NCBI GenBank assembly: GCA_024643985.1
Contig: JAHELW010000004.1
Coordinates: 1-53,952, forward strand
Source: Myxococcales bacterium
GTDB taxonomy: Bacteria > Myxococcota_A > Polyangia > Polyangiales > Houyiibacteriaceae
DNA: 53,952 nt
Direction: 5' to 3'
Shown here: positions 36,051 through 37,706 of the stretch, one piece after another
How positions within the stretch are numbered: the first letter of the stretch is position 1
How the letters are laid out: each line of letters starts with the position of its first letter
Program-made: the position numbers and the translations under genes
Notes under the pieces: model-generated
Databases searched by the model: none
The model's input: only the letters and a program-made list of their open reading frames with translations
What the model was told of the DNA's origin: nothing

Positions 36051-36911
36051 TCAGAGCTTGGCCCGGGAGGCGATCAGGTCGATCGCCTTCTTCGGGTCTG
36101 GCTCTCCCGTTGCGCCAAGCAGCACGACGACACGACTCAGCCCGAGCTCCTCGAATTCGCGGAGCGCGTTCGGTCGGGCCTTAATCCGCCAGCTCGTGGT
36201 GATGTCGAGCGAGTCGAACGGGCGCCCCGCCTCGTCGGCGAGCCGCCGAAGCGCGGTGAGCTTTTTCTCGAGCAGTTCCTGAGAGTCGCTCGGTGCGTAC
36301 CAGCCGTCGGCGACATCGACGACGCGCTTCAGCGTCCTCGTGCTGGTGCCCCCGATCAGGATCGGGGGATGAGGCTTCTGCACCGGGGTGGGGTGACTCT
36401 TGAAGCCGTGCCACGAGAGGAACTCGCCGTCGTGCTCCACGACGTCGCCCGTCCACACCTTCTTGACCGCGTCGAGGTAGTCGTCGAACCGCGCGCCGCG
36501 CCTTGCGAACGGCGTGCCCATCGCCTCGTACTCTTCGGCGAGCCATCCGATGCCGAGCCCGAGGGTCAGCCGGCCTCCGCTGAGGACGTCGAGCGATGCG
36601 GCCTGCTTGGCAAACAGCAGGGGGTTGGTTTGGGCAAAGATGTTGACGCCGGTCCCCAGCCGAATCGTGTTCGTCGCCGCGGCCACGTGTGAAAGCGCGA
36701 TGAGCGGATCGATGAACCAAGCCTCGGGCGCGATCGGCATCTTGCCAGAACGCGCATAGGGATACTTCGACTCGTATTCGAGCGGCACCACGACGTGCTC
36801 GAAGGTCCACACCGACTCGATCCCGGCCGCCTCCGCGTGCTGCGCAATCTCGATCATCCGCTCGGCCGTCTCCGGCCCACCCACGTTAATGGGAACGATC
36901 CCAATCTTCAT
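36051..36911 (-). CDS. LLM-class F420-dependent oxidoreductase
   Basis: A 286-residue TIM-barrel luciferase-like monooxygenase-fold protein. The beginning [26 protein letters not shown], the segment [26 protein letters not shown] and the block [28 protein letters not shown] match the F420-dependent class. It should transfer hydride to or from an unknown substrate using F420. ATG 36911 is used rather than an in-frame start six codons upstream. No F420 biosynthesis gene is in the window. It lies beside the fold-back element, whose left end starts 17 bases upstream of the gene. Confidence 0.88.
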
Positions 36912-36927
36912 AAGACCCGGTAATACC

Positions 36928-37471
36928 ACGGGGACATTCTCCCCCCTCTAGACCCCCCTGATTCCAACCACTTACGACCCACACCGCGAAAACCCGGGAT
37001 GCGGTGCTGGGTGGTTGCCGGATTGGGGGCGTGGTTTGGTTTAGTTATATCCGACCCACCCACCCCCACCCGTAATCCTCCCTCCGCGCCTGCGCTGCGC
37101 TCCGGCTTGGCGGCGCATGCGCGCCGGGCTTCGCCGTTCCGGCTCGCGCTTCCGCCTGCATCACGCCCGCCTGAGTAGGGGCAAAACGGTCTGCCTAGGG
37201 GCTCGGAAAAAACGCGACGTGGGTCGGAGCGGACGTGCCAAGTGCCAATCGCCACAACAGCAACCACCGGCGATTGGCGCGCAGCCCGAGGGAGGGCGTG
37301 CGTGGCCTACACCTCCAGTCTTACGGGCCACCTTTGCAGGCCCTCCCGCTCCGCGGAGCGCCCGCGTCGTGTTTTTTCCGAGCCCCGTATGCAGGGCGAA
37401 TTCGGGTTTTCGCGGTGTGGGTCGTAAGTGGTTGGAATCAGCGGGGTCTAGAGGGGGGAGAATGTCCCCGT
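36928..37471. repeat. fold-back element with 69-bp inverted ends
   Basis: The left end (36928-36996) and right end (37403-37471) are inverted copies identical at 68 of 69 positions; the only mismatch is within GACCCC-x-CTGATT. Inside are further nested inverted repeats: 37198-37219 with 37365-37386 (21 of 22), GCCAATCGCC with GGCGATTGGC (37244, 37269), GGAGGGC with GCCCTCC (37291, 37340), GTGGCC with GGCCAC (37302, 37326), and the palindromes at 37111-37126 and 37347-37360. There is no coding capacity for a transposase and no clear target-site duplication. It may be a MITE-like non-autonomous element or a structured-RNA locus. Confidence 0.85.
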
Positions 37472-37472
37472 T

Positions 37473-37502
37473 AAACAGAGAAGCCGACTCTTTCGAGCCG
37501 GC
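37473..37502 (-). terminator. intrinsic terminator of the 6S RNA candidate
   Basis: On the minus strand GCCGGCTC-GAAA-GAGTCGGC (37502-37483) makes an 8-bp stem with one G-U pair and a GNRA tetraloop, followed by a T-rich run TTCTCTGTTT. This fits a Rho-independent terminator just downstream of the RNA. Confidence 0.7.
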
Positions 37503-37510
37503 CCCCCAAG

Positions 37511-37706
37511 CAGTCCTGACCATCGTTGCCGTGGGATATCAGTTGAGTCGAACCCCTACTTTTTCTAGTAGGTGGGAACCGATGCCGTCCGCTTCAGGCC
37601 CCCCGATGACGCTAGCCGGGTCCGCACACCACGTCCGTTGTTGGCTCCCAATTCGACCTAGTCAGGGATTCTCACTCCTTCCTCACCTGCAGCGACAGAG
37701 GGACTG
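37511..37706 (-). ncRNA. ssrS: candidate 6S RNA
   Basis: A transcript of about 196 bases on the minus strand folds like 6S RNA, the RNA polymerase-sigma70 inhibitor. A closing stem joins the ends (CAGTCC with GGACTG; GTCGCTGC with GCAACGAT, 7 of 8). An inner stem TGGGAGCC/GGTTCCCA (37643-37650 with 37573-37580) flanks a large bubble, whose 3' side holds the typical small hairpin CCTACT-AGAAAA-AGTAGG (37555-37572) followed by GGTTCGA and ACGGCAAC, resembling the conserved CCACCT...AGGGTTCA...CGGC order of known 6S RNAs. A promoter and terminator bracket it precisely. Identification is by eye; a covariance search would decide. Confidence 0.7.

Follow-up and report, generated by a model that had tools for sequence, protein, structure and literature searches.

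A 540-bp element at positions 36930-37469 of the window, i.e., the whole 53,952-nt stretch of DNA analyzed here, is very probably a composite, non-autonomous representative of a mobile-repeat family of the TIRtron/REPIN type, as judged from sequence comparison. The MITE-like mobility proposed in the initial annotation is supported by dispersed copies, defined ends, occupied and empty sites, and transposase genes with arms of the same kind. The inner module B of the element is probably a structured RNA that hitchhikes in the mobile repeats. The window belongs to the draft genome of an uncultured myxobacterium (3.5 Mb in 288 contigs, 80% complete), referred to below as the window genome.

Boundaries and structure of the element

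The boundaries were defined by copy comparison, in which GGGGACATTC...GAATGTCCCC were the ends common to all copies. The initial annotation had placed the element at 36928-37471; its arms were confirmed, and the outer AC/GT (36928-36929 and 37470-37471) belongs to the flanks and pairs by chance. The 69-bp inverted ends described there (36928-36996 and 37403-37471) were recovered as 69 nt with 99% complementarity and 406 nt between them. The features of the element and its neighbors are listed in Table 1.

Table 1. Features of the 540-bp element and of the genes next to it.
Feature	Position	Strand	Remarks
Left terminal inverted arm (TIR)	36930-36996	+	GGGGACATTCTCCCC at the end, a middle part that varies, and CTTACGACCCACACCGCGAAAACCCG as conserved core
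Right terminal inverted arm (TIR)	37403-37469	-	Inverted-repeat search, copy comparison, and arm alignment
Module A	37011-37159	+	Interspersed repeat of ~120-150 bp; in sister species also solitary or paired in inverted doublets
Module B	37198-37389	+	Covarying structure of ~192 nt; ~39 copies in the window genome
6S RNA gene, outside the element	37513-37704	-	30.1 bits, E 4e-4; below the Rfam gathering score of 46.4
Luciferase-like monooxygenase gene (PF00296), outside the element	36051-36911	-	Start codon ~20 bp from the left end

No Pfam match was obtained for the ORFs in the element, in agreement with the earlier statement that it holds no coding sequence. Folded as a single strand, it is more stable than each of 100 dinucleotide shuffles (z = -17.6; 0 shuffles as stable). 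Of the internal inverted repeats, previously put at five or more, one strong pair (37198-37223/37361-37386) was retained by the repeat finder, and two additional hairpins nested within this pair by the comparative fold.

The arm identity of 98.6% in the window copy is an outlier above all other pairs measured; in 8 other arm pairs of the window genome, the left and right arms agree at ~70-90%. Recent mobility had been deduced from the near-identical arms. Mobility itself is supported by other evidence; arm identity is a weak argument for recent mobility, since in other copies the arms have diverged and since conversion within the element or short-read assembly could equalize them. One of these two processes may be the source of the 98.6% identity.

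Copies in the window genome and in the genus

The search of the window genome for further copies revealed ~40 or more dispersed copies that match it over much of its length. The same end is shared by almost all of the ~40 copies, and many are located at contig ends. The arm core occurs 138 times with at most 3 mismatches (reversed control: 2), and GGGGACATTCTCCCC is found 89 times with at most 1 mismatch (control: 0). A single copy with arms conserved at one locus in many species, named in the initial annotation as an argument against mobility, is thus not what was found.

The elements range from bare dimers of ~154 bp up to ~600 bp, and their interiors vary. As in REPINs, the window genome has inverted doublets that can fold to a single hairpin and are more numerous than their transposase; as in TIRtrons, it has dispersed TIR copies including dimers. 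Compared with the TIRtron end motif GGGGWSAS, the ends in the window genome are mostly GGGGACAT, agreeing at 7 of 8 positions, and GGGGACAG/C variants occur as well. The GT(A/G)G head that immediately precedes the 20-40 bp palindrome of canonical REPs is absent; the ends begin with GGGGACA and the preceding bases vary. When 18 other genomes of the genus were searched, the interior modules were present in most of them and the window-type arm sequences were absent from most.

Transposase genes framed by inverted arms

Y1_Tnp genes above the cutoff were detected in 12 of the 19 genus genomes. The RAYT group of the sister species comprises proteins of ~217-240 aa, for which HVH and AYxxLNPVRA motifs could be read from the sequences. 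These proteins score above the cutoff for Pfam Y1_Tnp (PF01797), with both the HUH motif and the catalytic Tyr, and below the cutoff for NCBIfam NF047646 'REP-associated tyrosine transposase' (E 1e-14 to 4e-17). Their genes are framed by inverted arms of 62-70 nt starting with GGGGACA or GGGACA, so that a Y1 HUH gene and inverted arms of the same kind as those of the element occur together in sister species.

Two subfamilies with distinct arms were distinguished, RAYT1 with the core AAAGATCGCAGCG and RAYT2 with the core CACCGCGAAAAC. The RAYT2 arm of G010 matches the window-type arm with 76% over 63 nt (E 2e-9), and the RAYT2 arms of G006 and G012 also align with the window arm. The RAYT1 arms of sister species, GGGGACAC, fit the GGGGWSAS motif. 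Other species have dispersed GGGGACACTCTCCCC repeats that contain the RAYT1 core, likewise at gene ends.

In the 80%-complete assembly of the window genome, no Y1_Tnp gene was found, and the search for a RAYT2-like gene yielded nothing closer than distant Y1 homologues, in 301-aa and 344-aa frames. For RAYT2, no PDB sequence match was obtained. The other Y1 genes examined gave no meaningful match to modules A or B beside them. A second palindrome, AAAAGGGGACTGTCCCCTTTT, is repeated near the 6S junction in G011, G008, G013, and G015 (loci L225, L226, L229, and L232), and it also flanks another Y1_Tnp gene in G012 (L049).

Occupied and empty sites

Comparison of sites across the sister species, as suggested in the initial annotation, revealed both occupied and empty states. 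At the mglA-leuS junction, eight species (G001, G003, G005, G006, G008, G013, G015, and G017) carry an armed RAYT, the window genome carries a 276-bp arm dimer and G014 a 153-bp dimer. In G004, G007, G010, G011, and G012, the junction consists of a short gap only. The target duplication that was to be looked for at such sites was not found, and no consistent one, the TA model included, was seen in copies with both ends visible.

The 6S candidate next to the element is supported, and, as had been noted, the boundary of the element lies immediately beyond its terminator-like hairpin. A 6S match was obtained in 12 of the 19 genus genomes, and the same 602-aa protein gene adjoins it in 12 of 12; among these 12 species, the element lies 3′ of the 6S RNA in the window genome only. 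Adjoining the luciferase-like gene, module A was found in G003 and G015, module B in G011, and a different palindrome, AAAAGGGGACTGTCCCC, in G013; the other species have nothing of this kind there. The junction of luciferase-like gene, element, and 6S RNA (36910-37500) is not collinear with relatives. Since this adjacency is absent in relatives, recombination between copies or misassembly at the repeat is possible, and the position of the element between the two genes indicates either a breakpoint of a rearrangement or a join made in assembly. Upstream of the luciferase-like gene, intergenic imperfect 6-base repeats (e.g., CAGTGC/CAGTGT) were observed in several species (L080, L081, and L091).

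Arm ends next to stop codons

For 72 arm ends enough flanking sequence was available, and 48 of them lie at -9 to +2 from the stop codon of an ORF with 80 or more codons, compared to 3.1% of random positions taken from the same stretches, which contain the repeats. The binomial p of ~1e-54 is indicative only, as the ends are not fully independent. TAG stops make up 30 of the 48 at arm ends vs. 13 of 42 in baseline genes (Fisher p 0.003), and CTAG 25 of 48 vs. 4 of 42 (Fisher p 1e-5). Insertion at the CT of CTAG is a plausible, if unproven, explanation of this preference because TnpAREP enzymes cleave at CT (PMC8266576). GTAG REPs supply TAG stops to neighboring genes, and therefore the closeness of repeats to stop codons is not new by itself.

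Alternatively, the repeats could be fixed bidirectional terminators or mRNA-stabilizing hairpins of convergent genes that multiplied through gene conversion and persist because of their function and not their mobility. This would account for the strong seam at the stop codons of convergent genes, for the position of the element after the 6S terminator and for the reports of REPs as 3′ elements elsewhere. This explanation is improbable given that the sites differ among sister species, many being empty with the genes intact, that transposase genes are bordered by arms of this kind, and that interiors vary in elements of ~154 bp to ~600 bp. A classical DDE-transposase MITE, to which the inverted ends, the missing coding sequence, and the high copy number would be suited, is highly unlikely: no consistent target duplication was seen, the ends match Y1/RAYT arms and no DDE gene with GGGGACATTC-type ends was seen at any copy inspected.

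Mosaic interior and module B

Module A is often solitary or forms inverted doublets 3′ of stop codons. Among the copies inspected, the repeat lying before module B is in most cases module A, repeat C, an arm, or the other palindrome, and the distance from module A to module B is 68-101 nt. Copies of the arms and of module A that lack B exist, as do, in other species, copies of B that lack window-type arms. From this arrangement it follows that the element is a mosaic in which arms of the window lineage surround an A + B unit common in the genus. Module C (GGAGAATCGGTCGGGATGCCCAGCACAGCGAG...) was observed as a further interspersed palindromic repeat of the mosaic upstream of module B (L044 3180-3300, L042, and L016).

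Module B folds into an outer helix, a three-way junction and two hairpins with conserved loops. In an alignment of 29 sequences, standard pairs account for 97.6% of the paired cells, and 23 of the 52 pairs show changes on both sides, which is reached by 0 of 500 shuffles. Pairing drops to 39-46% in slid controls, so that the covariation exceeds both shuffled and slid controls. There are 122 G.U cells vs. 3 A.C cells, and therefore one strand is the folded one, the + strand of the window. Template switching between arms alone would not produce such a wobble polarity. The RNA nature of module B is likely rather than proven, because single-stranded DNA recognized by a transposase could show the same polarity.

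With a covariance model, whose E-values are rough, 39 copies of module B were counted in the window genome and 1-42 in 17 other genomes of the genus, with single copies in G016 and G018 and none in G009. The stretches of G016 and G018 that were inspected did not contain the module. Beyond the genus, a few copies were found in G021 (same family) as well as in G042 and G047 (same order), and none on plasmids. Pattern matches in viral contigs were rejected as they failed the covariance model.

The initial annotation had also considered a large structured RNA, which holds for the inner module B, on the basis of covariation, and does not hold for the whole element. That the entire 540 bp form one such RNA, as the very stable fold and the covarying module B could suggest, has very little probability, since arms and modules are separable as described above and the middles of the left and right arms diverge in other copies. 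There is about an even chance that module B represents a new structured RNA family, carried as cargo by several unrelated repeats (TIR dimers, module A, module C, and short REP-like palindromes) in one myxobacterial lineage, some species of which have one copy only, and thus a mobile ncRNA domain and not a passive spacer.

Proposed mechanism and implications

For the mobile repeat family, the following mechanism is proposed. A Y1 HUH (IS200-like, RAYT/TIRYT) transposase, presumably of the RAYT2 type, would recognize the ~67-nt inverted arms as single-strand hairpins, might cleave at the CT of CTAG and would copy or join the arm-bounded element into new sites. Insertion would be tolerated almost solely right after a stop codon or terminator, often a CTAG stop. 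In the element, the arms would enclose two other interspersed repeats, A and B, of which B would be a one-strand module, most likely an RNA, with a putative function if any, that travels with the mobile repeats.

With these data, an uncultured myxobacterial lineage is added to the known hosts of palindromic repeats linked to transposases. Natural experiments are provided by the mglA-leuS and 6S junctions, where transposase, dimer, and empty states can be compared directly. That stop codons, above all CTAG, are preferred gives a hint as to how such repeats spread without breaking genes, and the covarying module riding in them raises the testable question of whether mobile repeats distribute functional RNA.

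Comparison with known systems

Module B covaries like the structured RNA families in Rfam; unlike these, it has no match in Rfam 15, even at E-values up to 10. Like bacterial interspersed mosaic elements (BIMEs), the element is a mosaic in 3′ intergenic space put together from several kinds of palindromic repeat; it differs from them in its repeat modules, one of which is a long covarying structure. With REPINs (Bertels and Rainey, 2011, PMC3116915) it shares the non-autonomous inverted doublet of transposase-associated ends, which forms one long hairpin, and a transposase kept at one locus. Unlike in REPINs, there is no GTAG/GTGG head, the arms have ~67 nt whereas REPs are short, and the elements reach up to ~600 bp with cargo.

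Ends of the type GGGGWSAS have been described for TIRtrons, along with TIR dimers at dispersed sites (Di Nocera et al., 2013, PMC3733652), and the TIRtron/TIRYT transposase belongs to TnpAREP subclass 2.1 (PMC6006769). In contrast to TIRtrons, the arms described here possess an additional conserved core, the interior contains the large modules A and B, the GGGGACAT ends of the window genome are one base off the GGGGWSAS consensus, the elements are located at stop codons with a preference for CTAG, and the host is a myxobacterial lineage. Common to both are a Y1 transposase with long flanking TIRs starting with GGGG as well as dispersed TIR copies and dimers, and the RAYTs of the sister species with their arms match the published description of TIRtron/TIRYT.
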